A stretch of 64,000 nucleotides of DNA from contig NZ_CP063356.1 of assembly GCF_001866075.3 (NCBI RefSeq), positions 1,292,164-1,356,163 on the forward strand, read 5' to 3'. The translations under genes were made by a program, and so were the position numbers. This DNA comes from Anaerobacillus isosaccharinicus. Lineage in GTDB: Bacteria > Bacillota > Bacilli > Bacillales > Anaerobacillaceae. The notes below the pieces were generated by a model, which worked only from the letters and a program-made list of their open reading frames with translations, was not told where the DNA came from and did not search any database. The stretch's first letter is position 1; each line of letters starts with the position of its first letter. Below, one piece after another: positions 521 to 42,600 of this stretch.

Positions 521-620
521 TAATGTAGAATGTAAAATGTAGAATTTAGAATGATTTTAGCAACACTTCGAAGCTAAACCCACTCGAATTCTACATTCTA
601 CATTCTGAATTCTACATTTT
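521..620. repeat. Heptad inverted repeat, copy 1
   Basis: The left arm is built of TGTAGAA/TGTAAAA units and the right arm of their complements (TTCTACA), with CTTCGAAGC in the centre. It spans the whole gap from the murA2 stop codon (619-621) to just before the glpX ribosome site. The stop-proximal arm contains a GAATTC variant that gives the element a direction. Confidence 0.85.
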
Positions 621-1908
621 AAGCGTTTTCCACTTCTTTCATTTCTTCGGCATTCATTTTTTCTCGCCAGATTTTTGCTCCGAGTCCGATTAATTTTTCT
701 TCTAAGTTTTCGTAACCGCGGTCGATATGTTCGATACCTGAGATTTCAGTAATTCCCTCTGCCATAAGTCCAGCTACAACAAGTGCTGCACCAGCTCGTA
801 GGTCGCTCGCTCTAACTTTTGAGCCTTGTAGCTGAGTCGTGCCACCATTAATGATTGCAGATCTGCCTTCTACTTTTACGCTGGCACCCATTCTTCTTAA
901 TTCATCTATATGTTTAAATCTTGCGTTATAGATCGTATCCGTCACAATACTTGTGCAACTTGCTTTTGTTAATAGCGAAGTAAATGGTTGTTGTAAATCT
1001 GTTGGGAAACCTGGATATACTAAAGTTTTAATATCAACACCTTTTAAGTTTCCAGTTTGGTAAATATAAATTTGATCATCGTTCGTCTCAATGTGAACGC
1101 CCATCTCACGAAGTTTCGCAATTAAAGATTCTAAGTGGTCTGGAATGACATTATCAATTAACACTTGTTTTCCCATGGCAGCTGCCATAATCATATAAGT
1201 TCCTGCTTCAATACGATCAGGAATAATCGAGTGGCGACAACCGTGCAGTGAATCTACACCATCAATTCGAATCTCATTTGTGCCAGCACCTTTTATCTGA
1301 GCCCCCATGCTTGTTAATAAAGTTGCAACATCAATAATTTCTGGTTCTTTTGCTGCATTTTCAATCACAGTTCTGCCTTTGGCTTTAACTGCAGCTAACA
1401 TAATATTGATTGTTGCACCTACACTAACAACATCTAAGTAAATTTTTGCCCCACGTAATTCGTCAGCACGTAAATAAATAGCACCTTGTTCATTGGTAAC
1501 TTTTGCTCCAAGGGCTTGGAAACCTTTAATATGTTGATCAATCGGTCTAGGACCTAAATTACAACCACCTGGTAAACCAATAACCGCTTTTTTAAATTTA
1601 CCAAGCATTGCTCCCATTAAATAATAAGAAGCACGCAATTTTTTAACTCGACCATTAGGTAATGGCATAGCAAACATATTTTCAGGATAAACAGTTAAAG
1701 AATCACCGTTTAAAGCTGTTTTCCCTCCAATTTCTTCAAGAAGTTCACTAAGTAACTGTACGTCAGAGATTTGGGGTAAATTGTCAATAGTCACCTCGGA
1801 ATCGGCTAATATAGCAGCTGGAATGAGTGCCACTGCGCTATTTTTAGCTCCACCTATGTTTACTCTTCCCTCTAGAGGATAACCGCCCTCAATTAATAAC
1901 TTTTCCAT
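619..1908 (-). CDS. murA2: UDP-N-acetylglucosamine 1-carboxyvinyltransferase (MurA paralogue 2)
   Basis: This 429-residue protein has the EPSP-synthase-like double-barrel pattern of MurA. It transfers enolpyruvate from PEP to UDP-GlcNAc, the first committed step of peptidoglycan synthesis, in the cytosol. Visible marks are the N-terminal [13 protein letters not shown], the catalytic-cysteine loop [13 protein letters not shown] near residue 117 and the FPTDLQQP segment. Low-GC Gram-positives usually carry two MurA enzymes; its place between tal and glpX matches the second one (MurAB/MurZ) of B. subtilis. The TAA stop is directly joined to a heptad inverted repeat. Confidence 0.95.
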
Positions 1909-2061
1909 AACAGCTTCCCTTCTTTTTAATACTCTCAGAATTAAATCTGGACAACATTAAACGAACTATTTTATTTAAATTCATTTCGAAAATAGCATTC
2001 TTGATGTTTTTTACCATTATAACCATAATGATTGAAAACAGTCTTAAAAAATACAAAATTG

Positions 2062-2153
2062 TTTGGAGTGTAGAGTGTAGAGTTCATGAAAGCTCTGCTA
2101 CGAAGCAGCACTTTCTTTACTCTAGACTCTAAACTATACACTCTACACTCCAA
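2062..2153. repeat. Heptad inverted repeat, TGTAGAG variant, copy 2
   Basis: The left arm carries GTGTAGAGTGTAGAGTT and the right arm carries ACTCTA, ACTCTAAAC and ACACTCTACACTCC. Both arms therefore use the G-containing unit, around a core GCTACGAAGCAGC. It lies in the murA2-tal gap. Confidence 0.75.
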
Positions 2154-2175
2154 AAGCACCTAAAGGGTGCTTTTG

Positions 2176-2424
2176 GCTTTTCTTTGTCTAGCTTCAGCTC
2201 CCAGCTCCTCGGGGTCAAATAACCTGCAAGATAAAAAGTCAAAATCTCACTTTTTTTCTTACAGAACATTTACCTGTCGGAGCTAGGCAGGTCGCCTACG
2301 CTTTTCTTTGTCTAGCTTCAGCTCCCAGCTCCTCGGGATCAAATAACCTGCAAGATAAAAAGTCAAAATCTCACTTTTTTCTTACAGAACATTTACCTGT
2401 CGGAGCTAGGCAGGTCGCCTACGC
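2176..2424. repeat. Two tandem copies of a 124-bp intergenic repeat
   Basis: Copy 1 is 2176-2299 and copy 2 is 2300-2424. Each begins GCTTTTCTTTGTCTAGCTTC and ends GGCAGGTCGCCTACGC, and the copies differ at only a few bases. Within each copy AGCTCCCAGCTCC near the start can pair imperfectly with GTCGGAGCTAGGC near the end, so each may fold as a long hairpin. Similar TGTCTAGCT...CGCCTACGC elements are familiar to me from other Bacillaceae intergenic regions. Together with copy 2 of the heptad repeat this accounts for most of the 549-bp murA2-tal gap; the remainder (1909-2061) shows nothing. Confidence 0.9.
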
Positions 2425-2458
2425 ATTTCTTATTATACCATTATTTCTGGTTATTCCG

Positions 2459-3100
2459 TTATTTTTGGTTATTCCAATCTTCTAGGAATTTCTCTATTCC
2501 TTGATCGGTCAGTGGGTGTTTTACTAGTTGGTTAATGACTTTAAAGGGAATTGTGGCGATATGGGCACCCTTCATGGCGGCTTCATGAACATGCATAGGG
2601 TGGCGAACTGAGGCTGCAATAATTTCAGTTTCAATGTTATGGATAAAAAACATTTCTGCAATTTCGGAAACTAGGTCAAGGCCATTTTGGCCGATGTCAT
2701 CAAGTCTACCAATGAATGGCGAGACATATGTTGCACCTGCTCTCGCTGCGAGTAATGCTTGAACAGCTGAAAAGACAAGGGTGACATTTGTTTTAATACC
2801 TATATCTGTAAAAGCTCTGACTGCTTTTAATCCTTCGGTTGTCATCGGGACCTTCACCGTAATATTTGGTGCAATCGCCGCCAGTTCCTTTCCTTCTTTA
2901 AACATTCCTTCAAAATCAAGGGCTATTACTTCAGCACTTACTGACCCAGAAACAACCGCTGTTATTTCTTTTAATCTTGTATGAAAGTCTACCCCTTCTT
3001 TTGCAACTAAAGAGGGATTTGTTGTCACACCGGCTAGAATTCCATATTCGTTTGCCTCTTTAATTTCTGTTAAGTTTGCTGTATCAATAAAGAATTTCAT
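2459..3100 (-). CDS. tal: Transaldolase / fructose-6-phosphate aldolase family (short TalC type)
   Basis: A 213-residue TIM-barrel aldolase of the short transaldolase class. The N-terminus [19 protein letters not shown] and the Schiff-base lysine segment ITVKVPMT (near residue 83) are typical, as is [11 protein letters not shown]. It would exchange dihydroxyacetone units in the non-oxidative pentose phosphate pathway, or act as a fructose-6-phosphate aldolase; the sequence alone does not decide. It lies next to fbaA as in B. subtilis (ywjH). A near-copy of its last 17 bases (TTATTTcTGGTTATTCC) is repeated directly downstream at 2442-2458, apparently a small tandem duplication. Confidence 0.93.
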
Positions 3101-5042: not shown

Positions 5043-6715
<1,673 letters not shown>

Positions 6716-6944
6716 GTAAGTTTTTATCAGAAGTCTTTTTAAAAAGAATAAAATAGATTAGTGCTTCTTACTTTTACCGCTCTTGTTCATAATCTACCTC
6801 AAAAAATTGGTTTCCACTTTTATACTTTCCAATCTTATGAATTTCATCATTCAATTTCAACACCAATGAGATTAACAGCTAAATCATTTCAACTAGATGT
6901 ACCTTAATAGGCTGAGAAAAAGACGGAATTCACTTTATAAAACA

Positions 6945-6996
6945 AAAAAACAAAAGCCACTGCCCCAATTTTAACGGGGGCGAACTTTTGTTTTTT
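6945..6996 (-). promoter_or_regulatory. pyrG leader attenuator hairpin
   Basis: On the minus strand, AAAAAACAAAAG...GCCCCC, a short loop, then GGGGC...CTTTTGTTTTTT make a terminator with a T-run. It lies about 99-150 nt downstream of a promoter whose expected start is GGGC. In B. subtilis pyrG, low CTP causes repeated G addition at a GGGC start, and the poly-G 5' end pairs with the C-rich arm of the terminator to prevent termination. The C-run in the 5' arm here would serve that role. The mechanism is inferred from this arrangement. Confidence 0.75.
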
Positions 6997-7090
6997 ACTT
7001 TAAGTATTAAGAAATAGCTAATCCAAGTTGATGGATACACATATTTTCTAATAATTAATTTAAGTTCTATTAATTTTGCTTATAAGAAAA

Positions 7091-7176: not shown

Positions 7177-7716
7177 CTAAAGCAAATCGTCTTCGTCATC
7201 TTCTTCTAATTCAGGTTCCTCTTCATCATCCGCGTCTACATCATCGTCATCTAAATCAATGTCGACGTCTTCATCGTCGTCTTCATCGCTAACAAGTTCA
7301 TCTAGTTCATCCTCTAGATCTTCAAACTCATCATCTAGTTCTTCTTCTAGATCATCAAAGTCCTCATCTAAATCGGTATCTAGATCATCATCGTCACCTT
7401 TCTTCTTAGCCTTCTTGCGTTTAACCGTTTGCGTTACTTCCTCTTCAGCCTGCTCGTATGGGTACCATGTTCTTAAGCCCCAACGATTTTCACCAAGACA
7501 AATAAAACGGCCGTCAACATTTAAGTCTGTATATAGGTAAGCGATGCGATCCAATACCTCGTTCTCAGACATCCCCTTTATTTCTGCAACTCTCTTAACT
7601 AAATCGCCATATACAAAAGGTTGCTTTTCATCTTGCATTAGTTCAAAAGCAATTTCCACCATGGACATTTCTTTGATTTCTTCTGGCGTGTACTCATTTA
7701 GCGTCAAAGTAGACAC
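7177..7716 (-). CDS. rpoE: RNA polymerase delta subunit
   Basis: A 179-residue protein. Residues 1-90 are the folded HARE-HTH domain (EEIKEMSMVEIAFELM, the NVDGRFICLGENRWGLRTWYP strand). Residues from about 105 are almost entirely Asp and Glu, the disordered tail that displaces nucleic acid from RNA polymerase. A short lysine stretch (VKRKKAKKKG) separates the parts. Delta speeds enzyme recycling and promoter selectivity in Firmicutes. The start is preceded by AAAGGATGTG. Its usual neighbour pyrG follows. Confidence 0.95.
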   Translation of the reverse strand: MSTLTLNEYTPEEIKEMSMVEIAFELMQDEKQPFVYGDLVKRVAEIKGMSENEVLDRIAYLYTDLNVDGRFICLGENRWGLRTWYPYEQAEEEVTQTVKRKKAKKKGDDDDLDTDLDEDFDDLEEELDDEFEDLEDELDELVSDEDDDEDVDIDLDDDDVDADDEEEPELEEDDEDDLL

Positions 7717-7894: not shown

Positions 7895-7984
7895 ATAGAA
7901 TGCAGAATTCAGAATGTAGAATTAGTGAGGTTTCTCGCTTCGAAGCATTCTCCCAAACCATTCTACATTTTACATTCTACATTA
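7895..7984. repeat. Heptad inverted repeat, copy 4
   Basis: The left arm contains GAATTCAGAATGTAGAATT, the core is CGCTTCGAAGCATT and the right arm is ATTCTACATTTTACATTCT. The GAATTC arm lies on the rpoE side, so this copy is reversed relative to those at 521 and 11329. Confidence 0.82.
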
Positions 7985-8040: not shown

Positions 8041-11000
8041 TTACATATTCCGACGGTATTGCCCACCTACTTGGTAAAGTGCTTGGGTGATTTGGCCAAG
8101 GGAGGCTACTTTAACTGTTTCCATTAATTCTTCAAAGACGTTCCCGTTAGACATAGACGTTTGTTGTAAACGTTTAAGGGCTGTCTCGACTTGATCTTTG
8201 TTACGATCTTGGAATGAACGTAAATTTATAATTTGCTGTTCTTTCTCTTCTTTTGTAGCACGTGCGATTTCCATGGTAAATTCTTCCTCAGTAGGTGCGT
8301 TTGGATTTAAATATGTGTTAACACCGATGATTGGAAGTTCGCCACTATGCTTCTTCATCTCGTAGAACATTGACTCTTCTTGAATTTTTCCACGTTGATA
8401 CTGTGTTTCCATCGAACCTAAAACGCCACCACGGTCACTAATTTTTTCAAGCTCTTGCAGCACCGCTTCTTCTACTAGATCCGTTAATTCGTCAATAATA
8501 TAGGAACCTTGAAGCGAATTCTCATTTTTTGCTAATCCAAGCTCTTTTGTAATAATCATTTGAATGGCCATCGCACGACGTACTGATTCCTCAGTTGGTG
8601 TTGTAACAGCCTCATCATAAGCATTTGTATGCAATGAATTACAATTATCATAAATCGCCATCAACGCTTGTAATGTAGTACGAATGTCATTAAAATCAAC
8701 TTCTTGAGCATGAAGGGAGCGACCAGAAGTTTGAATATGGTACTTTAATTTCTGACTACGGTCATTACCTTTGTATTTATTTTTCATTACCGTCGACCAA
8801 ATTCTTCTTGCTACACGGCCGATAACTGTATATTCTGCATCAAGGCCATTTGAGAAGAAGAACGAAAGGTTTGGAGCAAAGTCATCAATTTTCATCCCAC
8901 GACTTAAGTAATACTCGATATACGTAAATCCATTTGACAATGTAAAGGCTAACTGGCTGATTGGGTTCGCACCTGCCTCAGCTATATGGTAGCCCGAAAT
9001 CGAAACAGAATAATAGTTACGTACATTATGGTCAATAAAGTACTGCTGGATATCACCCATCATACGTAAGGCAAATTCTGTCGAGAAGATACATGTATTT
9101 TGACCTTGGTCTTCTTTTAAAATATCGGCTTGAACTGTACCACGAACGTTTGCCAGAGTAAGAGCTTTAATCTTGTTACGCTCTTCATCTGTAGCTTGAC
9201 GATTATTTTCCACTTCAAACTTTTCAATTTGTTGATCTATAGCGGTATTCATAAACATCGCAAGAATGATTGGTGCTGGACCATTGATCGTCATTGAAAC
9301 AGATGTAGAAGGAGCGCATAAATCAAAACCAGCATAAAGCTTCTTCATATCCTCTAATGTACAAACACTTACACCACTCTCACCAACTTTACCGTAGATG
9401 TCTGGCCGATAGTCTGGATCTTCTCCGTAAAGTGTTACAGAGTCAAAAGCTGTACTTAAACGCTTCGCATCATCATCTTTTGATAAGTAGTGGAATCTCC
9501 TATTTGTACGCTCAGGTGTACCTTCACCAGCAAATTGCCGCTTCGGATCTTCGCCTTGACGTTTGAACGGGAATACACCAGCTGTATAAGGGAATTCTCC
9601 TGGCACGTTTTCTTTAAAGCACCAGCGAATAATTTCTCCCCAATCATCAAATTTCGGTAGCGATACCTTTGGAATTTTTATGCCGGACAAGCTAGTCGTC
9701 GTTAACTGTGTACGAATTTCTTTATCACGGATTTTTGTTACTAACTCTTCTTTTGAGTAGTTTTCTTTTAATGTTGGCCATCTTTCGATAATCACTTTTG
9801 TCTCAGGATGTAATTTTTCTTCAAAATAAGTTTTCACCTTTTCTAGTTCAAGGAGAACTGACTCAGGTGCTTCATTACTACTACTCATCGACTGAAGTGC
9901 TTCGATTGTACCTTTGATTTGGTATAGCTTTCTAGCAACCGTTACTTGTTCTTCTGAAAACTCTTTATAACTACGAATCGTCGAAACGATTTCAAATAAG
10001 TATTGAGAACGTTCTGGAGGGATAATCATGTTATTTTTGACAACGTTTTTTGTCGTTTCTAACGTTGTCTGCCAATCTAGTTCGAACTTCTCGTTAATTT
10101 TATTAATTAGAGCTACAAAAAGTGTATTCGTTCCAGGATCATTAAATTGACTAGCAATCGTTCCATACACTGGCATGAGGTCTGTATCGACATCAAAAAG
10201 AGTACGGCTACGTTGATATTGCTTCTTTACATCACGGAGAGCATCTTCAGAACCTTTTCGCTCAAATTTATTAATACAAATTAAATCTGCATAATCAATC
10301 ATATCAATTTTTTCAAGCTGGGACGGCGCTCCAAATTCACTCGTCATCACATACATAGAAATATCAACGACGTCGACAATCGCTGCGTCTCCTTGGCCAA
10401 TTCCGCTCGTCTCAACGAGAATTAAATCAAAGCCTGCCGCTTTTACAACTTGGATTGCATCGCGAATCCCTTGAGAAATCTCCATTCTCGAACCACGTGT
10501 TGCAAGCGAGCGCATAAATACTCTTGGCGAATTAATTGAATTCATGCGAATACGGTCACCAAGAAGAGCCCCACCTGTTTTTTGTTTCGTTGGGTCAATC
10601 GAAATAATCGCCACTGTTTTTTCAGCGAATTCATATAAAAATCGACGAACTAATTCATCAGTTAATGAACTTTTTCCAGCTCCACCAGTTCCAGTGATCC
10701 CGATAACAGGAACATCTAGTGCCAATGCTTTTATTTGTTCAAAGGCAGCTTCAGCAGTTGTAGCGATTTCTTGATTATCAAGCTCTTGTTTTTCTGCTAG
10801 TGTAATTAATTTTGAGATTGCTTGAACATTCTTCTCTCTTAGTTGCTCAATTTCATTTGTTACTGTTTTAACAGTTGGGAAGTCACACTCCTCCATCATC
10901 ATGTTAATCATACCTTGGAGTCCTTGTGTTCTTCCATCTTCAGGAGAAAAAATTCGGGCAATTCCGTACTCATGTAGCTCTTTAATTTCAGTAGGAATAA

Positions 11001-11313
11001 TAACTCCACCACCTCCACCGTAGATACGGATGTGGGAAGCTCCTTGTTCTTTTAAAAGGTCGTACATATACTTAAAGTATTCCACATGACCGCCTTGATA
11101 AGAAGAAAGAGCGATCCCCTGGACATCCTCTTGAATCGCAGCATGAACAACTTCTTCTGCAGAGCGGTTGTGACCTAAATGAATAACTTCAGCTCCACTA
11201 GCTTGTAGCATTCTTCTCATAATATTAATAGATGCATCATGACCGTCAAACAAACTAGATGCAGTTACAAAGCGTACATGATTTTTCGGTCGATAAGTAT
11301 GAACGTTTTCCAT
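8041..11313 (-). CDS. icmF: Fused isobutyryl-CoA mutase with G-protein chaperone
   Basis: A 1,090-residue, coenzyme B12-dependent acyl-CoA mutase. Domains in order: cobalamin-binding ([27 protein letters not shown]; residues about 15-150); a MeaI-type GTPase chaperone (P-loop [10 protein letters not shown] near 210, [17 protein letters not shown]); a linker; and the substrate-binding TIM barrel ([31 protein letters not shown]). IcmF interconverts isobutyryl-CoA and n-butyryl-CoA, and some members also act on isovaleryl-/pivalyl-CoA. I chose MENVHTY as the start because GGAGGA lies 7 bases before it. It heads toward rpoE in a block of fatty-acid-degradation genes, suggesting use of branched short-chain acids. 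Confidence 0.95.
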
Positions 11314-11328
11314 CGAATCATCCTCCAT

Positions 11329-11430
11329 TTAAAATGTAGAATGTAAAATGTAGAATGTAGAATAATTTGAGGGGAAAGCTTCGAAGCATCCCTTGCTCAA
11401 TTTTACATTTTACATTCTGAATTCTACATT
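11329..11430. repeat. Heptad inverted repeat, copy 5
   Basis: The left arm has four TGTARAA units, the core is AAAGCTTCGAAGCATC, and the right arm is TTTTACATTTTACATTC then GAATTCTACATT. It fills the gap from the icmF ribosome site to the TetR gene and overlaps the last codons of that gene: the TAG stop of the TetR gene lies inside the repeat. Confidence 0.88.
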
Positions 11431-12053
11431 GGTTTTTTTAAGAGTCCTTCTAAAATCAATTTTGTTTGTAATTGAATGTATTCGTCTAGGGTGTAGTTTT
11501 TTTGAATTGCCCAGCGTCTAAAGGTCCACATATGGGATTGGACGAGGATGTTGTGTGCTGCTAGTTTTATTTCTTGGTCTGTTAATTGTAGATGACCTTG
11601 GCTAGCGCACTCTTGAATGACTTGTTCGATCATTTCAGTCATATCCATTTCTTTCTGTAAAACGTATGCTAACGCTTCTTTTGGAAGCGACTTAGATTCT
11701 TGGTACATAACTAACACTTCATCTTGTAAGTCATCGATTACTTTAAAAAGAGCTGCTATTGCTGATTTTAAGCTTTCGATCCCCTCGGCATCATGCGTAA
11801 GGCGTTTTTTTAATTTTTCACTAACTTCGTCATAAATTGCGTCGCATACTAGATAAAGAATATCTTCTTTAGAGCCAATGTACTCATAAAGAGTTCCAAT
11901 ACTAAAACCAGATTCTTTTGCTACTTCTCTCGTCGTTGTTCTATGGAAACCTTTTTCTTTAAAAAGGGTTACTGCCGCCTTTATCATTTGTTCTCTTCTC
12001 TTTTTAACTAACTGCTGATCCTTGACCATTGAAGGCACTTTCTTCTTTTTCAA
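11424..12053 (-). CDS. TetR/AcrR-family transcriptional regulator (acyl-CoA catabolism)
   Basis: 209 residues. The N-terminal helix-turn-helix is complete (AAVTLFKEKGFHRTTTREVAKESGFSIGTLYEYIGSKEDIL, residues 27-67); the C-terminal part is a helical ligand domain of the kind found in FadR-like regulators. A TTG start follows a GGGGAG site at 9-11 bases. Standing between icmF and acyl-CoA dehydrogenase genes, it is the likely regulator of this block, probably sensing an acyl-CoA; this is inference from position. Its final Met codon and TAG stop come from the adjoining heptad repeat. Confidence 0.88.
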   Translation of the reverse strand: MKKKKVPSMVKDQQLVKKRREQMIKAAVTLFKEKGFHRTTTREVAKESGFSIGTLYEYIGSKEDILYLVCDAIYDEVSEKLKKRLTHDAEGIESLKSAIAALFKVIDDLQDEVLVMYQESKSLPKEALAYVLQKEMDMTEMIEQVIQECASQGHLQLTDQEIKLAAHNILVQSHMWTFRRWAIQKNYTLDEYIQLQTKLILEGLLKKPM

Positions 12054-12076
12054 CGACTAATACACTCCCCTGTCTT

Positions 12077-12175
12077 AATGTAGAATGTAAAATGTAGAAT
12101 GTGGAATGATGTAAGCTGTTGCTCCGAAGCAATGCTCACAACAATTCTACACTTTACATTCTGAATTCTACATTC
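12077..12175. repeat. Heptad inverted repeat, copy 6
   Basis: The left arm is AATGTAGAATGTAAAATGTA, the core TTGCTCCGAAGCAA and the right arm ATTCTACACTTTACATTC plus GAATTCTACATT. It fills the gap between the acdA stop (12179-12181) and the TetR ribosome site. Confidence 0.88.
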
Positions 12176-12178
12176 ATT

Positions 12179-13321
12179 TTAGTCTGCTAGAAGCATTTTG
12201 GAAATAACGAGTCTTTGAATTTCATTTGTTCCTTCGTAGATTTGTGTAATTTTTGCATCTCTCATGTATCGTTCAACTGGATAATCTTTTGTATATCCAT
12301 AGCCACCGAATACTTGAACTGCTTCAATTGCTACTTCCATGGCTGTGTCACCAGCAAATAATTTTGACATTGCTGATTCTTTTCCGTATGGCAGGTTTTC
12401 GCTTTCGCGCCATGCTGCTTGATACGTTAATAATCTTGATGCTTCAATTTTTGTTGCCATATCGGCAATTTTAAACGCCAATCCTTGTTGTGCTGCAATT
12501 GGCTTACCAAACTGTTTTCTCTCTTTAGCATATCCAACGGCTGCATCAAGAGCCCCTTGAGCGATTCCAACAGCTTGTGCCGCTATTCCGTTACGTCCAC
12601 CATCTAACGTCATCATCGCAATTTTAAAGCCTTCTCCTTCTTTTCCGAGAAGATTTTCTTTTGGGACACGGCAGTTATCAAAGATAATTTCTAATGTTGG
12701 CGATGAACGAATTCCTAATTTCTTTTCTTTTTTACCGAAAGAAAATCCTGGTGTGCCTTTTTCAACGATAAATGCACTTACGCCTTTATGTTTTAATTCT
12801 GGTTGTGTCACTGCAAATACGACATAAATTTCAGCGTCGCCACCGTTTGTAATAAAGATTTTTGAACCATCTATAATATAGTCATCGCCATCTTTTCTGG
12901 CTATTGTTTTCATGGCGGAAACGTCAGATCCTGCACCAGACTCTGTTAAGCCATATGCCCCTAGTTTTTTTCCTTCTGCCATTGGTCGTAAAAACTTTTG
13001 TTTTTGCTCTTCTGTACCGAATTTATAAACAGGCCAGCCAGCCAACGATGTATGTGCTGACAGCGTAACGCCTACTGAAGCACATACGCGAGAAAGTTCT
13101 TCTACCGCAATTGCATAAGATAAATAGTCGCCACCAATTCCACCGTACTCTTCTGGCCAAGGAATCCCCGTTAAGCCTAGTTCGCCCATCATATCGAAAA
13201 TACCACGGTCAAAGCGCTCTTCTTCGTCACGTTCAGCAGCTGTTGGTGCAACTTCATTTTTTGCAAAATCGCGAACCATTTTTCTAATCATTTCTTGTTC
13301 TTCAGTTAATAAAAAATTCAT
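12179..13321 (-). CDS. acdA: Acyl-CoA dehydrogenase (short-chain type)
   Basis: A 380-residue FAD enzyme introducing a 2,3-double bond in acyl-CoA. Visible are the flavin-binding [11 protein letters not shown] and [15 protein letters not shown] segments, the [20 protein letters not shown] signature, and the catalytic glutamate in [10 protein letters not shown] near residue 364. A GGGGGAATAAAA site precedes the ATG. It lies in tandem with a similar gene (13429-14571); the two clearly differ in sequence, which suggests different acyl chains. Electrons would pass through ETF and FadF to menaquinone. B. subtilis has an acdA in the same chromosomal place. Confidence 0.93.
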
Positions 13322-13428
13322 TTTTATTCCCCCTAAGGTTTTCTATTCATACGTGTTAAAAGAGAGGATAATCAAAGCCAACGAAGAGATTGGCAAGCTT
13401 GATTACCTGACTTTTTGAACATCCTCTA

Positions 13429-14571
13429 TTAATCTCTTAACAAATGCTTACTAATGACAATTCTCTGTATCTCGCTTGTACCTTCGTAAATTTCACAAAT
13501 TTTTGCATCACGGAAATAACGTTCAACCGGATAATCTTTTGTATAACCGTAGCCTCCAAATACTTGGATGGCTTCCGTAGCAACTTCCATTGCTGCACGT
13601 GAAGCAAATAATTTCGCCATTGATGCTTCTTGACCGCACGGTAATCCTTTCTGGCGGAGTGCTGCTGCACGATAGACTAATAGTTTTGCAGCCTCTACTT
13701 TTGTCGCCATATCGGCTAATTTAAAACCTAATCCTTGTTGCATTCCAATTGGTTTACCAAATTGCTGTCGTTCTTTCGCATAGCCGATGGCACTTTCTAA
13801 TGCCGCTTCAGCAATCCCTAATGATTGAGCAGCAATACCAATTCTTCCTACATCTAAGTTAGACATTAGAATTTTGAATCCTTCTCCTTCTTCACCAAGG
13901 AGGTTACTAACAGGTACACGAACATCTTCAAAAATCAACTCACAAGTGTTGGAACCGTGTAGACCCATCTTGTGTTCCTTTTTTCCTACTGAAAACCCCG
14001 GTGTGTCTTTCTCCACAATAAAAACAGAGATCCCTTTTACACCAGCACTTGGATCTGTTTTTGCTGAAACAATATACGTGTCTGCTTCACCAGCATTTGT
14101 AATAAAGATTTTCGACCCATTTATAACGTAATGGTCGCCATCTTTCACTGCACTCGTACGGATGCTAGCAGCATCACTTCCTGCACCAGGTTCAGTAATG
14201 GCAAATGCACCTAAATACTCTCCAGTTGCTAATTTCGGAACATACTTCTGTTTTTGCTCCTCAGTTCCAAAGTAAAGAATTGGGTTCGTACCAACTGATG
14301 TGTGCACCGAGAGAATGACACCTACTGTTGCACTCACCTTCGATAATTCGTGAATAGCAATGATATAGGATGTGAAATCCATATCAGACCCACCATATTC
14401 TTCTGAAATCGGAATACCTAAAAGGCCAAGGTCACCCATTTGTTTGATTATTTCCTTAGGGAAGCGATCTGTTTCTTCCATTTCTGCAACCATTGGCGCA
14501 ATTTGCTCTTGGGCAAAATCGCGTACCATTTTCCGCATCATTTCTTGTTCTTCCGTAAAACGTAACTCCAT
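13429..14571 (-). CDS. Acyl-CoA dehydrogenase (butyryl-CoA-like)
   Basis: 380 residues from MELRFTEEQEMM. The start is the ATG at 14571, after AAGGGAG at nine bases; a TTG three codons earlier is less likely. Motifs: [48 protein letters not shown] and catalytic IYEGTSEIQR. The neighbouring 3-hydroxybutyryl-CoA dehydrogenase and thiolase suggest butyryl-CoA or a similar short chain. The 107-bp gap to acdA carries no heptad repeat, unlike the other junctions of this block. Confidence 0.92.
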   Translation of the reverse strand: MELRFTEEQEMMRKMVRDFAQEQIAPMVAEMEETDRFPKEIIKQMGDLGLLGIPISEEYGGSDMDFTSYIIAIHELSKVSATVGVILSVHTSVGTNPILYFGTEEQKQKYVPKLATGEYLGAFAITEPGAGSDAASIRTSAVKDGDHYVINGSKIFITNAGEADTYIVSAKTDPSAGVKGISVFIVEKDTPGFSVGKKEHKMGLHGSNTCELIFEDVRVPVSNLLGEEGEGFKILMSNLDVGRIGIAAQSLGIAEAALESAIGYAKERQQFGKPIGMQQGLGFKLADMATKVEAAKLLVYRAAALRQKGLPCGQEASMAKLFASRAAMEVATEAIQVFGGYGYTKDYPVERYFRDAKICEIYEGTSEIQRIVISKHLLRD

Positions 14572-14590
14572 CCCCGTCAACTCCCTTTTT

Positions 14591-14694
14591 AAATGTAGAA
14601 TGTAAAGTGTAGAATGTATAATTTTTGAAAGCGACGCTTCGGAGCTATGCCAAAGACAAAGACATTTTACATTCTACATTCTGAATTCTACATT
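14591..14694. repeat. Heptad inverted repeat, copy 7
   Basis: The left arm is AAATGTAGAATGTAAAGTGT, the core GACGCTTCGGAGCTATGCC and the right arm ACATTTTACATTCTACATTC plus GAATTCTACATT. It ends on the base before the TAA stop of the hydroxybutyryl-CoA dehydrogenase and begins just before the ribosome site of the next gene. Confidence 0.88.
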
Positions 14695-15543
14695 TTAGTA
14701 TTGATAAAACCCTCTGCCTGTCTTCTTGCCTAGCCAGCCGGCTTTTACATATTTTCTAAGTAATGGGCACGGACGATATTTGTCATCACCAAAGCCCTCT
14801 TGAAGTGTTTCCATAATGTATAGACAAGTATCTAACCCGATGAAATCGGCTAGTGTTAGTGGTCCCATTGGATGGTTCATTCCTAATTTCATCACTTCAT
14901 CGATAGCTTCAGGTGTTGCAACACCTTCATACACTGTGTAGATCGCTTCATTGATCATTGGCATCAAAATACGGTTTGAAACAAAACCTGGGAAATCATT
15001 TACTTCTACCGGGGTTTTATTTAATTTATGAGACATTTCTTCAATCACTTCATACACTTCATCAGAAGTCGCTAAGCCGCGAATTACTTCAATAAGCTTC
15101 ATAACTGGAACTGGATTCATGAAATGCATACCAATTACTTTTTCAGGACGCTTCGTCACAGCCGCAATTTCGGTGATTGGCAGCGATGATGTATTCGTAG
15201 CTAAAATAGCGTGAGCTGGTGCTATTTCATCTAATTGTGTAAAGATTTTCGATTTAATTTCCATGTTTTCAACAGCTGCTTCAATGACCAAATCGACTTC
15301 GCTTGCATCTTCAAGTTGTACAGAAGCTGTAATTTGATTTAAAATTGCATCCCGATCACCTTCTGATAGCCTACCTTTTTCAACTTGACGGTTTAAATTT
15401 TTATTAATAATCCCTAAGCCACGGTCAACAAACTCATCTTTTATATCATTTAGAAATACTTCATAACCTGCTTCGGCACATACTTGAGCAATACCTGACC
15501 CCATTTGCCCTGCACCAATAACCATTACCTTTTTAATATCCAT
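14695..15543 (-). CDS. hbd: 3-hydroxybutyryl-CoA dehydrogenase
   Basis: 282 residues. An N-terminal Rossmann domain ([21 protein letters not shown]) binds NAD, followed by ATNTSSLPI, the catalytic histidine segment [15 protein letters not shown] and the C-terminal dimer domain [20 protein letters not shown]. It oxidises 3-hydroxybutyryl-CoA to acetoacetyl-CoA. Start chosen at MDIKKVM, with GGGGGAAG 5 bases upstream. It stands between acyl-CoA dehydrogenase and thiolase genes. No enoyl-CoA hydratase lies in this block; one occurs at 40689. Confidence 0.95.
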
Positions 15544-15566
15544 GTCCGCTTCCCCCACTTTTTTTA

Positions 15567-15626
15567 AATGTAGAATGTAAAATGTAGAATTTTATTTTGC
15601 TTGTTATGCTTCGAAGCAAAACCATA
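15567..15626. repeat. Partial heptad repeat, copy 8
   Basis: The arm AAATGTAGAATGTAAAATGT and the core ATGCTTCGAAGCAAAA are present, but the right arm is replaced by unrelated sequence: a decayed or truncated copy. Confidence 0.65.
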
Positions 15627-15736
15627 ATTAACTTTCATATACAACATAAGCTCTAACTTTTTTAATTATTAACCTTTTAGTCTCGAAGCTTATCAGCCCC
15701 GACCTAATTCGTCAGTCATAATTCATCATTGTATTT

Positions 15737-16915
15737 TTAAACTTCAATCATAATCGCATCGCCTTGGCCGCCGCCGCTACATATCGACGCAATACCGATG
15801 CCGCCGCCACGGCGTTTTAATTCATAGGCCAATGTTAAGACGATTCTCGCTCCACTAGCTCCAATTGGGTGACCTAGTGCAACAGCGCCACCATTTACAT
15901 TGACTTTGTTTGGATCTAGCCCTGAGATTTTTTCGCTTGCTAGAGCAACTGCTGCAAACGCCTCATTCACTTCAAATAAATCAATTTCTTCTACCGATTT
16001 CCCTGTTTTTTCTAAAAGTTTATTTATCACTAAGCCTGGTGTTTTCGGGAAGTTTTCTGGCTCAATTGATATCGTTGTATGTCCGATAATCGTTGCTAAA
16101 ATGTCTTTCCCTTCTTTTTGCGCTCGTTCTTCAGACATAAGAACGACTGCACACGCACCATCATTAACACCTGGGGCATTTCCTGCTGTAATTGTCCCTG
16201 TAGAATCAAATACTGGTGCAAGTTTTGATAGTCTCTCAATTGATGTGTCTGCTCTAGGTGACTCGTCTTGAGTAACGACAATTGGATCTCCTTTTCTTAC
16301 TGGTATAGAGACCGGTACAATTTCTTCGGCTAGTCGACCAGCTTCAATGGCTGCAATCGCATTTTGATGACTGCGCAATGCCAATTGATCTTGCTCTTCT
16401 CTTGTTATCTCTAATTCTTTTGCTACACCATTTCCGTAAGAACCCATATGTGTACCTTTAAAAGAACAAGTAAGCCCATCGTGTACCATTAAGTCGTGAA
16501 CTTTTCCGTCGCCCATTCTAAAGCCAAATCGAGCCTTTGACATAAAATAAGGAGCACTACTCATTGATTCCATTCCGCCAGCAACGATTACTTCTGCATC
16601 ATTAGCTCTAATCAGTTGATCCCCCATCGTAATACTTCTCATTCCAGAAGCACAAACCTTATTAATCGTTTCAGTTGGAACACTCCACGGTAAACCACCA
16701 AGGCTAGCCGCTTGCCTAGAAGGAATTTGTCCTTGCCCTCCTTGTAGAACCATTCCTAAAATACATTCGTCAACTTCTGAAGCGTTTACATTTCCTCGTA
16801 CTAGCGCTTCTTTAATAGCGAAACCACCTAGTTCTACAGCCTTTAGATTACTAAGGCTACCTCCCATTTTTCCAAAAGGTGTTCTTGCTCCACTTACGAT
16901 TACAGTTCTTGTCAT
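15737..16915 (-). CDS. Acetyl-CoA acetyltransferase (thiolase)
   Basis: 392 residues with the thiolase triad: nucleophilic Cys in [10 protein letters not shown] (near 88), His in [14 protein letters not shown] (near 348) and second Cys in CSGGGQGDA near the C-terminus. It cleaves acetoacetyl-CoA to two acetyl-CoA, or runs in reverse. The start MTRTVIV follows GGGGGAA. A 14-bp palindrome at 16950-16963 lies just upstream. It completes the route acyl-CoA dehydrogenase, hydroxyacyl-CoA dehydrogenase, thiolase of this block. Confidence 0.95.
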
Positions 16916-16933
16916 CTCAATTTCCCCCTTCAT

Positions 16934-19357: not shown

Positions 19358-19453
19358 GTCGACTTTTTTTAAAAAAATTTTTTTCTACAATATTTACAAC
19401 TTCTTCTTTCAATTTGGACAAACTAATGTGAAACCTTAATGAGGAGTGCTCAC

Positions 19454-20647: not shown

Positions 20648-20700
20648 AATGTAGAATTTGTGAGAGTGTTGCTTCGAGGCTCTCTCTATACATTTTTGTT
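20648..20700. repeat. Degenerate heptad repeat, copy 9
   Basis: AAATGTAGAATTTG immediately after the cls stop, a core TTGCTTCGAGGC and a short arm TATACATTTTTG; a shortened copy. Confidence 0.55.
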
Positions 20701-26203: not shown

Positions 26204-26234
26204 TGTACTTCATCCTTTTAGACAATATGTTTAC

Positions 26235-26285
26235 TGGACGTGGACTTTTTGATGGAAATGTCCACGCGTGGGGTCAGACCCCACT
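26235..26285. repeat. GTGGACA / GGGGTCAGACCCC repeat, copy a
   Basis: TGGACGTGGAC...GTCCACG makes a hairpin, followed by the 13-bp near-palindrome GGGGTCAGACCCC. Related units occur at 36723-36787 and 51574-51745. Confidence 0.8.
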
Positions 26286-26328
26286 GAGAGTTTGCTACAA
26301 AATAAGCTTTCACCATTATACAACATAG

Positions 26329-26404
26329 AAAAAAGAGTTTAAAGTTAGAATGTCGGCTACGAAGCACTGCTTTCACAACTCTACACTCTACACTCTAAAC
26401 TCTA
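26329..26404. repeat. Heptad repeat, TGTAGAG variant, copy 11
   Basis: The right arm has three units (ACTCTACACTCTACACTCTA), the core is GGCTACGAAGCACTGC, and the left arm is a decayed GAGTTTAAAGTT. It lies between ywiB and speB. Confidence 0.7.
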
Positions 26405-26411
26405 CCGTTTA

Positions 26412-27284
26412 TTATTTAACCCAACCTAGTAAGATTTCACGAACAAATTTACTAGCCGCAATTTGTGTTTGCTCTGAAGGGTCGTAGGCGGGTGCTACTT
26501 CAACAATATCAGCACCTACGATATTCATCTTTGTATCAGCAATTAAATGGATCGCTTGTAATAGCTCTTTTGATGTAATTCCGCCAGCTTCAGCCGTTCC
26601 TGTTCCTGGTGCAGCTGATGGGTCTAGTACATCGATATCAATAGTCACGTAAACATTTTTCCCAGCAAGCTTCGGTAACACTTGTTTAAGTGGCTCAGCA
26701 ACATCAAATTTTGCCATATACATCCCAGACTCGCGGGCATATTGGAATTCTTCTCTCATTCCAGATCGGATCCCGAACGAATAAATTTTCTCAGGTCCTA
26801 ACAATTCACACGCTTTACGGATTGGTGTCGAGTGGCTTAGTGGTTCGCCCTCATAATGCTCGCGTAAATCTGCATGAGCGTCGATGTGAATAATGACAAG
26901 ATCATCATACTTTTTATTTAAAGCTTTAAAAATAGGCCATGAAACTAAGTGCTCGCCGCCAAGACCTAACGGAAACTTGCCGTCAGCTAAAAGCTTGTCC
27001 ACAAACTCCTCAATCATATCAATGCTTCTTTGTGCATTACCAAATGGAAGTGGGATATCACCAGCATCAAAATAGTTTACGTCTTCTAAGTGACGGTCTA
27101 AATAAGGACTATATTCTTCTAAGCCTAATGATACTTCACGAATTCTAGCTGGGCCAAAACGAGAGCCTGGGCGAAAACTTACCGTGAAATCCATTGGCAT
27201 TCCATAAATAACTGCCTTACTTTCTTCATATGTGCTATTTGTTCCAATAAATACATTACCTGAATATGCTTCATCAAATCTCAT
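26412..27284 (-). CDS. speB: Agmatinase (ureohydrolase family)
   Basis: A 290-residue manganese enzyme that hydrolyses agmatine to putrescine and urea. Metal-site motifs: GGEHLVSWP, HIDAHADLREHY and TIDIDVLDPSAAPGTGT. The AAGGGG site lies 9 bases before the ATG. It follows speE by 13 bp, so the two form a spermidine operon: putrescine made by SpeB is aminopropylated by SpeE. Confidence 0.95.
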   Translation of the reverse strand: MRFDEAYSGNVFIGTNSTYEESKAVIYGMPMDFTVSFRPGSRFGPARIREVSLGLEEYSPYLDRHLEDVNYFDAGDIPLPFGNAQRSIDMIEEFVDKLLADGKFPLGLGGEHLVSWPIFKALNKKYDDLVIIHIDAHADLREHYEGEPLSHSTPIRKACELLGPEKIYSFGIRSGMREEFQYARESGMYMAKFDVAEPLKQVLPKLAGKNVYVTIDIDVLDPSAAPGTGTAEAGGITSKELLQAIHLIADTKMNIVGADIVEVAPAYDPSEQTQIAASKFVREILLGWVK

Positions 27285-28399: not shown

Positions 28400-28471
28400 A
28401 ATGGAGAATTAGTGCAAGTAAAGCTCTGGTGATTTGCTTTCACCATTTTACATTTTACATTTTACATTTAA
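28400..28471. repeat. Heptad repeat, copy 12 (degenerate left arm)
   Basis: The right arm has four TTTTACA-type units ending next to the pbpG ribosome site; the left side keeps only GAATGGAGAATT and the core lacks TTCGAA. Confidence 0.6.
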
Positions 28472-33361: not shown

Positions 33362-33431
33362 GGTCGAAAGACTTCGAAGCCTCACTTATACCATTCTACA
33401 TTCTACATTCTACATTCTACATTCTACATTT
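33362..33431. repeat. Heptad repeat, copy 13
   Basis: The core GACTTCGAAGCCTC is followed by five perfect TTCTACA units (CATTCTACATTCTACATTCT...), the longest uninterrupted run in the window; the left arm is missing, apparently at the IS-bearing side. It ends on the TAA stop of ywgA. Confidence 0.75.
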
Positions 33432-33939
33432 AACTAAGCTTGTCCATTTTTCTAAGTTCGTCAATATAACTAAAGGCATCTGCAATTTCATCTTCCGTGT
33501 AGTTAAGCTTTGCCTTTACCGTGTGAACTTTTTCGATCATTTCATCTTTAGTTAAATCCTCGAAAAAGAGGAGCGTAGAGACGAGCTCTAAAAAGCGGGA
33601 GCTCTTCTCGTTGATATCTAAGGTAAATTCTTTTAGTTTCGGAATATCTAAACTAGAAATTGATAAAAATTTTGTACCTTCTTCGGATAACGTATATCGA
33701 TATTGATAGTAGCCACCTTTTTTCTCCTTTGTTTCATAAACAAAGCCCAAGTTGCACATTTCCTCAATACGGAGAGTTAACTCTTCAGAATATGGCCCAT
33801 AAAAATGAAAGTTATATCGTTCTTGAAATGGGAAATTAATTTTTTTGGCGATATAAATGATTTTTTGCAGTTTTTTTCGACCAATAACTTCTCCTGCGTC
33901 ACGAATCAACGCCATAATTTTTACGTGATCATTTAACAA
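33430..33939 (-). CDS. ywgA: YwgA family protein
   Basis: 169 residues with an N-terminal winged-helix-like segment (MLNDHVKIMALIRDAGEVIG RKKLQKIIYI) and FYGPYSEELTLRIEEM. Function is unknown. It starts 11 bp after the ywfO stop, so the two are likely co-transcribed, as in B. subtilis. The stop TAA is directly followed by the heptad repeat. Confidence 0.85.
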   Translation of the reverse strand: MLNDHVKIMALIRDAGEVIGRKKLQKIIYIAKKINFPFQERYNFHFYGPYSEELTLRIEEMCNLGFVYETKEKKGGYYQYRYTLSEEGTKFLSISSLDIPKLKEFTLDINEKSSRFLELVSTLLFFEDLTKDEMIEKVHTVKAKLNYTEDEIADAFSYIDELRKMDKLS

Positions 33940-35246: not shown

Positions 35247-35333
35247 ACCAGCACCCCTTTCAACCAACTCTACCGTTCTAAGTGTATATATATGAGTTTA
35301 TTATAAAATAAAGAGTATGATACACGCCACATA

Positions 35334-35414
35334 ATGTAGAATGTAAAATGTAGAATGTAGAATTATTGAAAGCATTGGCTTCGAAGCTTTCTGAATAAAT
35401 CTCCATTTTACATT
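35334..35414. repeat. Heptad inverted repeat, copy 14
   Basis: The left arm is TAATGTAGAATGTAAAATGT then AGAATGTAGAATT, the core GGCTTCGAAGCTTTC and the shortened right arm TCCATTTTACATT, then the A-run of the next terminator. Confidence 0.82.
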
Positions 35415-36840: not shown

Positions 36841-36846
36841 CAAATT

Positions 36847-40673: not shown

Positions 40674-40688
40674 AGAGGAGTGGAACAA

Positions 40689-41435: not shown

Positions 41436-41451
41436 TTTTTCATAATTCAAA

Positions 41452-41540
41452 ATGTAGAATGTAGAATGCAAAATGGTAAAAGCTAAGCTACGAAGCATGC
41501 TAAACTAATTCTACATTCTACATTTTACATTTTGCATTCA
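41452..41540. repeat. Heptad inverted repeat, copy 15
   Basis: The left arm is AAAATGTAGAATGTAGAATG, the core AAGCTACGAAGCATGC and the right arm ATTCTACATTCTACATTTTA then CATTTTGCATT. It fills the gap before the hemQ promoter region. Confidence 0.85.
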
Positions 41541-41654
41541 TTCAATTTGGTTTTTCCCTTCGTAAATAGTATAATGAGCATAGAAATAGTAATTACCAAA
41601 AAATAATTAGTATTGTTATTATTATTAAGATTCGTTTTGAGGAGTGGGTTATCA

Positions 41655-42398
41655 ATGAGTGAAGCAGCTAAAACATTAGAAGGCTGGTATTGTTTACACG
41701 ATTTTAGAGCAATCAACTGGGAAAAGTGGAAGTACCTTTCTACAGAAGAAAGGCAATCAATTACAAATGAATTGTTAGGATTATTAGAAAAATGGGAAAC
41801 GACAGAAGCAAGAAAAGCTGGAAGTCATGCTCTTTATAGCATCGTTGGCCAAAAAGCTGATCTTTCAATTATGCTTTTACGTCCAACAATGGAAGAGCTT
41901 AACGAAATTGAAAACGCGTTTAATAAAACTCGGTTCGCTGAATACACAATTCCTACATATTCGTATGTTTCAGTAGTTGAACTAAGTAACTACCTTCCTG
42001 CAAGTGTCGACCCTAATGAAGATCCTGAAATTCAAGCACGTTTAAAACCAACTTTACCAAAATCTAAGTATATTTGCTTCTATCCAATGAATAAGCGTCG
42101 TGAAGGTAATGATAATTGGTACATGCTACCAATGGAAGAACGTAAAACTTTAATGCGCAGTCACGGGATGATCGGTAGAGGTTATGCGGGCAAGGTAAAA
42201 CAAATTATTACAGGTTCTGTAGGTTTTGATGATTGGGAATGGGGTGTAACTTTATTCTCAGATGATGTACTTCAGTTCAAAAAACTAGTTTACGAAATGC
42301 GTTTTGATGAAGTAAGTGCTCGTTACGGAGAATTCGGTTCATTCTTCGTAGGAAATCTTTTATTAAAAGAGTCAGTACCAAATTACTTACACATATAA
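41655..42398 (+). CDS. hemQ: Coproheme decarboxylase (HemQ/ChdC)
   Basis: 247 residues of the chlorite-dismutase-like fold. It decarboxylates coproheme III to heme b, the last step of the Gram-positive heme route. Visible are [13 protein letters not shown] with the catalytic tyrosine (near 145), the [24 protein letters not shown] helix-loop with the heme-ligand histidine (near 171) and the [13 protein letters not shown] strand. Start MSEAAKTL after GAGGAGTGGG; a longer frame lacks a ribosome site. Equivalent to B. subtilis ywfI. Confidence 0.95.
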
Positions 42399-42404
42399 AG
42401 AACG

Positions 42405-42433
42405 AAAGTCAGATGTTAACCATCTGACTTTTT
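42405..42433 (+). terminator. hemQ terminator
   Basis: AAAGTCAGATG, loop TTAAC, CATCTGACTTT and TT-run, directly downstream of hemQ. Confidence 0.9.
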
Positions 42434-42600
42434 AATTTCCGTTTTTAATTTCCGGTTTTCCACCTTCACTTTTCGGTCTCGGATTTTCAGTTTCCGCCTG
42501 CGATCATCGGTTTTCGATCTTTGGTTTTTCATTCTACATTCTACATTTTACATTCTACACTCTACATTCATTCTTTAAATTCATAATTCTATATTCAAAA
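42434..42600. repeat. Low-complexity TTTCCGGTTTTC tract and heptad repeat copy 16
   Basis: 42434-42526 is a pyrimidine-rich tract made of variants of TTTCGGTTTTC (TTTCCGTTTTT, TTCCGGTTTTCC, TTTTCGGTCTC, CATCGGTTTTCG). It is followed at 42527-42575 by one heptad arm (TTCTACATTCTACATTTTAC...) lacking a clear partner. It lies between hemQ and cwlJ. Confidence 0.6.

Follow-up and report, generated by a model that had tools for sequence, protein, structure and literature searches.

Intergenic inverted repeats with heptad arms in Anaerobacillus isosaccharinicus and sister genomes

Heptad repeats in the 64-kb window

The stretch of Anaerobacillus isosaccharinicus DNA analyzed here (the window; 64,000 nucleotides of contig NZ_CP063356.1) carries between its genes about 16 inverted repeats or half-repeats built from the heptads TGTARAA or TGTAGAG, most of them centered on a core resembling GCTTCGAAGC (table 1). 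A full copy reads as a heptad array, a short variable linker, the 10-bp palindrome GCTTCGAAGC, a second linker, and an inverted heptad array, giving a symmetric element of ∼70–140 bp; all heptad pairs examined by eye point inward. The first-pass annotation had proposed a family of about 17 such repeats, and the family is real: two-unit matches to TGTARAATGTARAA with at most one mismatch number 44 in the window against 0.40 expected, and none of 100 shuffles scored as high. All eight copies it had rated as good are inverted repeats where it had placed them, with arms of 24–35 nt and 80–92% complementarity except for 35340–35414, which was called with 15-nt arms. The partial copies at 15567, 20648, 28400, 33362, and 42527 are also present (that at 20648 with a single heptad only), and the five perfect units reported near 33362 are the array at 33394–33428. 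To this set we add 2062–2154 and 26335–26404, both of the TGTAGAG subtype, and the half-array at 52406–52427. The central core, also claimed to be shared, is recognizable in most copies, but the exact 10-mer occurs in only 4 of the 16 inspected by eye; nine differ from it by one change, and those at 28400, 42525, and 52406 have no clear core. By eye, a separate terminator-like hairpin with a T-run precedes the element at 7895.

Table 1. Heptad elements in the window (window coordinates)
Coordinates	Strand	Element	Core and surroundings
522–618		Full element, TGTARAA arms	Core ACTTCGAAGC; adjoins stop codon of ORF 619–1908(−)
2062–2154		Full element, TGTAGAG subtype	Core GCTACGAAGC
7897–7984		Full element	Core GCTTCGAAGC
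11333–11430		Full element	Core GCTTCGAAGC; overlaps stop codon of ORF 11424–12053(−)
12077–12174		Full element	Core GCTCCGAAGC; within a fatty-acid-degradation-type gene run
14591–14695		Full element	Core GCTTCGGAGC
15567–15640		Left arm and core, degenerate right arm	Core GCTTCGAAGC
20648–20695		Decayed element: one heptad, linker, core	Core GCTTCGAGGC; directly behind stop codon of ORF 19439–20647(+)
22809–22927		Full element, enlarged center	Between convergent genes; overlaps TAA of ORF 20891–22810(+)
26335–26404		TGTAGAG/TTTAGAG-subtype element, weak left arm	Core GCTACGAAGC
28400–28466		Partial element, right arm TTTTACA ×3	No clear core
33362–33428		Core and a single arm of perfect TTCTACA ×5	Core ACTTCGAAGC; one base from stop codon of ORF 33430–33939(−)
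35333–35414		Long left arm, short right arm	Core GCTTCGAAGC; divergent gap
41444–41538		Full element	Core GCTACGAAGC
42525–42566	−	Half-element, tandem heptads without partner arm	
52406–52427	+	Short TGTAAAG/TGTAGAG array	No clear core

A scan for inverted repeats made irrespective of the unit, with at most 170 nt between arms and hence blind to any gene-carrying parent element, returned 22 in the window, 9 of them with period-7 arms and none, at the same cut-off, with any other arm period from 4 to 12. The 55 inverted repeats obtained from twenty local shuffles together include 3 whose arms are periodic; their periods are 4 and 8, never 7. Between copies, the arms are much alike (0.83; shuffled 0.56) and the two linkers hardly so (0.40 and 0.36; shuffled 0.30 and 0.29), indicating that the arms are maintained or renewed; this comparison and the one for near-identical copies below used elements with a core match of at least 9 of 12, which kept 62 of 73 for the arms and linkers.

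Distribution and heptad differences in the genus

The repeats are found along the chromosome and in sister species, which bears out the proposal of a widespread family. At least 86 distinct covariance-model sites are present in the genome among the matches listed, and three-unit matches reach 37.5 per 100 kb in the window versus 7.9 in the genome. We compared the window's genome (G000) with the other six of its genus, probably Anaerobacillus (G001–G006); the host group consists of alkali-loving relatives of Bacillus. The core is enriched in five of the seven genomes: counts are 74 in G000, 53 in G003, 25 in G001, 29 in G005, and 27 in G006, with 2 each in G002 and G004, and a reversed-core control gives 3, 1, 3, 10, 7, 3, and 2 in the same order. 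In 60–64 kb of each genome, the unit-agnostic scan found period-7 arms in 9/22 inverted repeats of G000, 10/19 of G003, and 4/15 of G001, and in 0/16 of G002 and 0/18 of G004. A further 79 loci from other genomes, chiefly of Bacillaceae and totaling 1.59 Mb, yielded no inverted repeat with period-7 arms. A plasmid search with one element as query and the BLAST low-complexity filter on gave no match, nor did a literature search for the heptad strings as printed text.

Elements recur in orthologous gaps far above chance, in 13/20 versus 4/54 for G003 and 10/21 versus 0/56 for G001, and the excess holds in nondivergent gaps of at least 60 nt (P = 1e-4 and 1e-5, respectively); none of 11 testable element gaps in G002 and of 4 in G004 is occupied, the G002 gap corresponding to 11333–11430 being only ∼4 nt long. 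At most of the shared sites the heptad subtype, judged by eye, is a different one: this holds for 11 of the 13 gaps common to G000 and G003 and for 7 of the 10 common to G000 and G001. The gap of 12077–12174, for instance, holds a TTATGAG version in G003 and a TTATGAA version in G001, and that of 14591–14695 a TGTAGAG version in G003. The genus has at least four heptad subtypes, and the two arms of an element carry the same one: among the 15 G003 cores for which both sides could be assigned, 14 agree, an inverted repeat not being required (Fisher 0.005 with one TGTARAA pair left out), and in 48 of 50 G000 cores, nearly all of which are of one subtype. Of the 29 G005 cores, 21 were inspected by eye, and TTTTGAG-type arms flank 14 on both sides, 3 on one side, and 4 on neither.

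We favor, at about an even chance of being right, a genus-level, non-autonomous repeat family of foldback type that acts as DNA and exchanges its heptad subtypes over time. Copies would spread or be overwritten much as REP or MITE sequences are, a putative recombinase would recognize the core and/or the arms, one subtype could take over many sites within a species, and slippage would alter the unit number; an orthologous site would then reflect either a second strike by a new copy or conversion of the arms in place. The lack of an RNA-sense bias among stem mismatches and the crowding at stop codons (see below) speak for this reading; that an arm fits its own partner no better than the arms of other copies (see below) speaks against it. 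It should be noted that the 14591 element and the element of G003 at the same site have flanks, such as CCCTTTTTAA, that look by eye like one ancestral position, which favors change in place over re-insertion. The central parts at orthologous sites are not more alike than random pairs (16 vs. 288 pairs, P = 0.31, a core match of at least 8 of 12 being required). Their likeness was therefore rejected as proof of common descent, and the result is compatible alike with re-insertion, conversion, and old decay.

Mobility had already been guessed at in the first-pass annotation, and the data fit it, but the usual marks of transposition were not found. Across 73 elements, whose edges are defined only to within a few bases, the longest word common to the two flanks averages 4.19, and 4.04 when partners are shuffled (P = 0.115), so that the target-site duplication typical of MITEs is not seen, and the best pair among the 62 copies compared reaches a likeness of 0.80, none being near-identical. 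Mobilization as a RAYT-type REP was also rejected. PF01797 (Y1_Tnp) matches occur in six of the seven genomes, including the element-free G002, and not in G005, which has the core; of the 15 matches in G000, G001, and G003, 8 were inspected with 5 kb of sequence around each, and none of these eight stretches contains a heptad element. Nor is there a RAYT-type end tag, as GTAG is internal to the TGTAGAA and TGTAGAG units and missing from the TTTTGAG and TTATGAA subtypes. One weak periodic call near the Y1 transposase genes is unrelated sequence.

Concerted evolution in place without mobility, in which stationary ancestral hairpins are reshaped by slippage along an arm and homogenized by recombination between copies until each species has a word of its own, is a tentative possibility that we consider on the whole unlikely. 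It accords with the occupation of the same gaps in three species, often placed almost identically with respect to the stop codon and the ribosome-binding site, with a series of units related by single steps (TGTAAAA, TGTAGAA, TGTAGAG, TTTAGAG, TTTTGAG, TTTTGAA, TTATGAA), and with perfect arrays that reach 18 units and suggest recent slippage; however, several subtypes stand side by side in one genome, their distribution is discordant with the species tree (the TTTTGAG type is in G003 and G005), and dozens of dispersed arms of 20–35 bp would presumably need very short homologous-recombination tracts. A bolder and rather improbable reading stresses the constant core and the exchangeable arms: either dedicated machinery or a templated process resembling that of telomeres would write sense heptads onto gene 3′ ends and around a fixed palindrome, a species could swap its word at a hundred or so sites, and the heptad arrays that follow stop codons in Xanthomonas, in other Bacillota, and on some virus-labeled contigs would all stem from one widespread process.

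Position relative to genes and readings at the RNA level

The elements lie close behind genes, and 1 of 74 falls inside an ORF. With that element and those lacking a neighboring ORF on both sides left out (68 remaining), 48 of 73 adjacent stop codons are within 15 nt of an element and 21 of 63 adjacent start codons are 16–35 nt away. This hugging of the stop codon exceeds what the available space would produce: where a tandem gap leaves 60 nt or more free, 14 of 30 elements show it and 3.5 would be expected. The gaps themselves (51 tandem, 11 convergent, and 6 divergent; n = 68) differ little in orientation from all gaps (256, 53, and 49).

A role as stop-codon cassettes was considered and rejected. 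Arms read in the entering direction close a mean of 2.30 frames versus 0.68 for their reverse complements, and all three are closed by 62 of the 116 arms that measure 21 nt or more, as opposed to 3 of their reverse complements; shuffled arms, however, close 2.00 frames, and a stop is supplied by 87% of real units (398/456) but also by 78% of random heptads matched for the C-poor composition, so that the excess is mostly one of composition.

An element of the RNA 3′ end, a transcript hairpin that protects, processes, or separates operon segments, would suit the location behind stop codons, the four copies within the gene run 8041–16933, and the predicted folding of nine window elements (10/10 folds far below shuffles, z −4.0 to −8.9). 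Its probability is nevertheless small, and the earlier suggestion of RNA processing signals is weakened, as G-U mismatches in the sense-strand stem (49) are not in excess over A-C (48) and only 7 of 73 elements are followed by a stretch of 10 nt with six or more T. An element's own arms, moreover, match no better than those of other copies (n = 53, P = 0.46; clear TGTARAA elements with both arms at least 20 nt), gap orientations are close to those of all gaps, and the testable gaps of G002 and G004 are empty. Coevolution of partner arms was rejected; an association at paired R sites (P = 0.002) appears after inverted-repeat calling had fixed the register. At the gathering score, Rfam covariance models matched none of the elements, and their one hit in the window was a T-box leader at another place. 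The first-pass annotation would have been refuted by repeats confined to this contig or by a match to a named Bacillaceae element; neither was seen. That they are intrinsic terminators, repetitive by chance, is very improbable: plain terminator-like hairpins do occur by eye in the sister gaps at 22809 (G001) and 41444 (G001, G002, and G003), with T-runs noted at 41444, but the T-run of a Rho-independent terminator follows so few elements, the 21 start codons at 16–35 nt leave space for little beyond a ribosome-binding site, and the 7895 element has, by eye, a separate terminator-like hairpin and T-run ahead of it.

Relation to known repeats

Concerted evolution of short dispersed repeats is normally discussed for eukaryotic satellites; in this genus it becomes directly testable, given strain collections, for dispersed bacterial repeats, as orthologous gaps can be set side by side in species that retain core, position, and orientation while the heptad word changes, and the core motif offers a handle for seeking the responsible protein. 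Among eukaryotic foldback-type transposons, Tetris and Tm1 reportedly have internally repetitive inverted arms; such transposons are larger than the present elements, and some have a transposase. Internally repetitive inverted arms are also described for Galileo (PMC3573991). All three are eukaryotic, and we found no evidence of kinship.

REP and BIME sequences are likewise high-copy extragenic palindromes, mainly downstream of genes and between codirectional or convergent ORFs; they are 20–40 bp long with GTAG or CGTC at one end, the GTAG type is thought to be mobilized by RAYTs, and the abstract does not mention heptad arms (Di Nocera et al. 2013; PMC3733652). The TAACTGA repeats of Beggiatoaceae are intergenic heptad arrays too; most of them immediately precede start codons, 169 sets are direct and a single one is inverted, and the observation that a forward unit places stops in all three frames was made for them earlier (MacGregor 2015; PMC4679880).

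The closest likeness is to Xanthomonas, where GGGAATC heptads form 70 inverted pairs in one genome and 75 in another (Rehm et al. 2015; PMC4692102), contrary to the first-pass statement that no element with hairpin arms of heptad minisatellites had been described. These are tandem heptads in sense orientation behind stop codons, as in the present elements (48/73 within 15 nt), and often paired inward. The Xanthomonas unit differs in being G-rich and quadruplex-forming, is the same in both species, and belongs to another phylum, and in the available part of the report no central palindrome common to the copies is mentioned; the paper also gives GGGGA(C/T)T heptads for Nostoc and describes heptameric repeats as over-represented in many bacteria, their role unexplained (PMC4692102). 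The present elements are thus a variant of an already published but unexplained kind, inverted heptad pairs. What is new is that sister species keep them in the same gaps, mostly with another heptad, and this change of word at shared sites, which lay outside the view of the first-pass annotation, suggests a little-studied process by which repeats throughout a bacterial genome are rewritten.

Arms, core and spread of the family

Inverted repeats with heptad arms around a conserved core make up a real family at the level of the genus. The window occupies positions 1292164-1356163 of a single 5.23-Mb contig of its genome (G000), and one of its proteins has its best match, among the named genomes listed, in Anaerobacillus alkalilacustris (81%), which points to a related species, probably a congener; G001–G006 are relatives belonging to this genus. 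The arms of TGTAGAA/TGTAAAA units and the central core (GCTTCGAAGC) reported in the first-pass annotation are present in the window as described there, as judged from repeat and pattern scans and from reading. We used a unit-agnostic scan, in which inverted repeats with arms at most 170 nt apart were called first and the periodicity of the arms was asked second. Period-7 arms were found in 9 of the 22 window inverted repeats and arms of any other period from 4 to 12 in none; period 7 was absent among 55 inverted repeats pooled from 20 local shuffles, and no period-7 inverted repeat was found in 79 loci (1.59 Mb) of other genomes, mostly Bacillaceae. The exact two-unit heptad pattern gave no match across 80 loci from a protein homology search.

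A covariance model built from nine window copies was run on the whole genome (G000) and gave at least 86 distinct places among the 150 hits scored out of 2349 candidates, which bears out the earlier proposal that the family extends well beyond the window. These places are clustered: the 1.5 Mb of chromosome between 3.5 and 5.0 Mb hold 2 of the 86 listed. The unit-agnostic scan called 74 elements in 444 kb of G000 sequence, made up of the window and stretches picked because they hold elements; 23 of these 74 lie outside the listed covariance-model places. A three-unit pattern with at most one mismatch matched 411 times in G000 (51 in the reversed control), 98 times in the congeneric G001 (control 2), 48 times in G003 (control 3), twice each in G004 and G005, and not at all in G002, G006 and 34 genomes from other families of the order.

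The core matched at 9 or more of 12 positions in 62 of the 73 G000 elements lying outside open reading frames (ORFs), and ten of its positions are conserved at 0.87–1.0 among those 62, which is partly an effect of the selection. Likeness across copies is 0.83 for the arms in the best register (shuffled 0.56), and 0.40 and 0.36 for the left and right linkers (shuffled 0.30 and 0.29). The largest unit number, 18 perfect units, occurs in one single-arm array.

Position relative to genes and the RNA or DNA level

ORFs were called mechanically at 90 or more amino acids, so that small genes may be missing; on these calls one of the 74 elements lies inside an ORF. The 68 elements with both neighbors lie in 51 tandem, 11 convergent and 6 divergent gaps, against 256, 53 and 49 among all gaps. 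Of 73 adjacent stop codons, 48 lie no more than 15 nt away (median 3 nt), and 27 are at or inside the edge of the arm. This closeness does not only reflect a lack of room, because the excess persists where a tandem gap leaves 60 nt or more free: there 14 of 30 elements are within 15 nt of the stop (3.5 expected). It comes mostly from the widest gaps, with 8 of 13 against 0.4 expected at 300 nt or more and 2 of 9 against 1.0 at 120–300 nt. Four stretches read by eye (L173–L176) carry long TGTAGAA arrays in which an upstream TAG or TAA seems to lie within or adjoin the first unit; these arrays look as if they might have grown out of a stop codon, the TAG/TAA perhaps being that of the gene.

The predicted hairpin energies of the elements are extreme because of the arms themselves. 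Stem mismatches in the 51 tandem-gap elements, oriented by transcription, comprised 49 G-U, 48 A-C and 78 others; this equality speaks against a selected RNA hairpin, which should favor G-U. T-runs follow 7 of 73 elements, and an element's own partner arm fits no better than the arms of other copies (16.53 vs. 16.48, P = 0.46). Left and right linkers show slightly greater complementarity within an element than when paired across elements (0.41 vs. 0.37, P = 0.03), a weak hint that they may form an inner stem.

Shared sites and changing arm words

The surprising feature of the family is that the arm word changes at shared sites. The gene order of the window is largely conserved in G001, G003 and G002, and partly in a G004 stretch. 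In G003, elements were present in 8 of 11 gaps that hold a window element versus 2 of 19 that do not, and in G001 in 6 of 11 versus 0 of 18. A second region of 60 kb, selected for its richness in G000 elements, gave 5 of 9 versus 2 of 35 (G003) and 4 of 10 versus 0 of 38 (G001); for both regions pooled, P = 1.1e-6 in G003 and 3.2e-7 in G001. When only non-divergent gaps measuring 60 nt or more in each of the two species compared were counted, the figures were 10 of 16 versus 2 of 29 (G003) and 8 of 14 versus 0 of 31 (G001). G002 had elements in 0 of 11 element gaps of the window and a single tandem array of a different unit in the second region (1 of 5 vs. 0 of 30, P = 0.14); in G004 no element was called in the 4 testable window-element gaps.

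By eye, 11 of the 13 gaps shared with G003 carry a different heptad subtype in that genome, either TTTTGAG/TTATGAG or TGTAGAG, as do 7 of the 10 shared with G001, where it is mostly TTRTGAA; the others (2 of 13 and 3 of 10) are of the same subtype or ambiguous. Simple common descent is disfavored, since the central parts at shared sites resemble each other no better than random pairs (P = 0.31). Our best guess is that the elements are mobile.

Within an element the two arms agree. When anchored on the core, without requiring an inverted repeat, both sides could be classified at 50 of 71 cores in G000 (48 concordant, 46 of these TGTARAA), 15 of 17 in G003 (14 concordant) and 2 of 11 in G001 (both concordant); arms were found at 0 of 2 cores in G002. 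By eye, the 21 of 29 G005 cores that were read had TTTTGAG/TGTTGAG/TTAAGAG-type arms on both sides in 14 cases, on one side in 3 and on neither in 4, three G001 cores had TTATGAA- or TTGTCAA-type arms, and the single G004 core read had none. The heptad subtypes are at odds with two single-gene trees, which agree on (G001,(G000,G003)) and give weak support for the root or for placing G002, G004 and G006; the second, in which the longer piece alone of a split G003 gene was used, also pairs G005 with G006.

Other repeats and RNA features in the window and at orthologous sites
Sequence	Coordinates	Strand	Feature
Window	2176-2431		Further intergenic repeat directly beside the 2062-2154 element: two tandem copies, unit ~124 nt, 98-99% alike, starting GCTTTTCTTTGTCTAGCTTCAGCTCC
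Window	26203-26412		Matching gap in A. alkalilacustris has a short GAGTTTA inverted repeat, uncalled by the scan (by eye)
Window	51776-51954	-	T-box leader (Rfam RF00230, 104.7 bits)
Window	56809-56993		Cluster without relation to heptads: 26-nt direct repeat in three copies, 69-85% alike (TATCGGACAT...), plus three inverted repeats that overlap
L146 (G001)	~2368-2972		Tandem array, long units of roughly 50 nt, where the window has a heptad element; ortholog of window gap 15559-15736 (by eye)
L147 (G001)	~15199-16104		Tandem array, long units of roughly 50 nt, where the window has a heptad element; ortholog of window gap 42399-42646 (by eye)
L001 (A. alkalilacustris)	5784-7055		Array, units roughly 50 nt around TCTTTTCGCGTACCCTAAAGCG, adjoins ortholog of window 7177-7716 (by eye)

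Wider occurrence and known heptad repeats

Three TKWWGAR units in a row were found in 20 of 398 Bacillota genomes, in several of which control matches were equally numerous. Selected loci of two of the richer genomes were read for heptad arrays. Those of G144 hold 21 arrays, with four inward and no outward pairs, and only 5 of the 21 have a stop codon on their own strand at a distance of 15 nt or less. Those of G250 hold 17 arrays (15 distinct, two seen twice) and no array pairs; measured from the preceding stop codon on the array's strand, 8 of the 17 begin at 0–14 nt and another 2 at 20–22 nt. Four consecutive TGTARAA units also occur in four stretches of three virus-labelled contigs; one virus-labelled stretch has a period-7 inverted pair with TGTAGAA/TGTAGAG arms, and another a period-7 inverted pair with TTGTTAA-type arms. 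A further observation by eye on a virus-labelled contig (L228) is of at least eight perfect TGTAAAA units running from an apparent TAA stop, followed by an A/T-rich hairpin.

The heptad strings of the element were not found in the published literature, and the matches listed on heptamer repeats or Anaerobacillus repeats held no Bacillaceae case, in searches that mostly leave aside subscription journals. Heptad repeats of TAACTGA are described for Beggiatoaceae (PMC4679880). The Anaerobacillus elements are a variant, itself new, within a little-studied class already described: the GGGAATC heptads of Xanthomonas (PMC4692102) have a very similar geometry.
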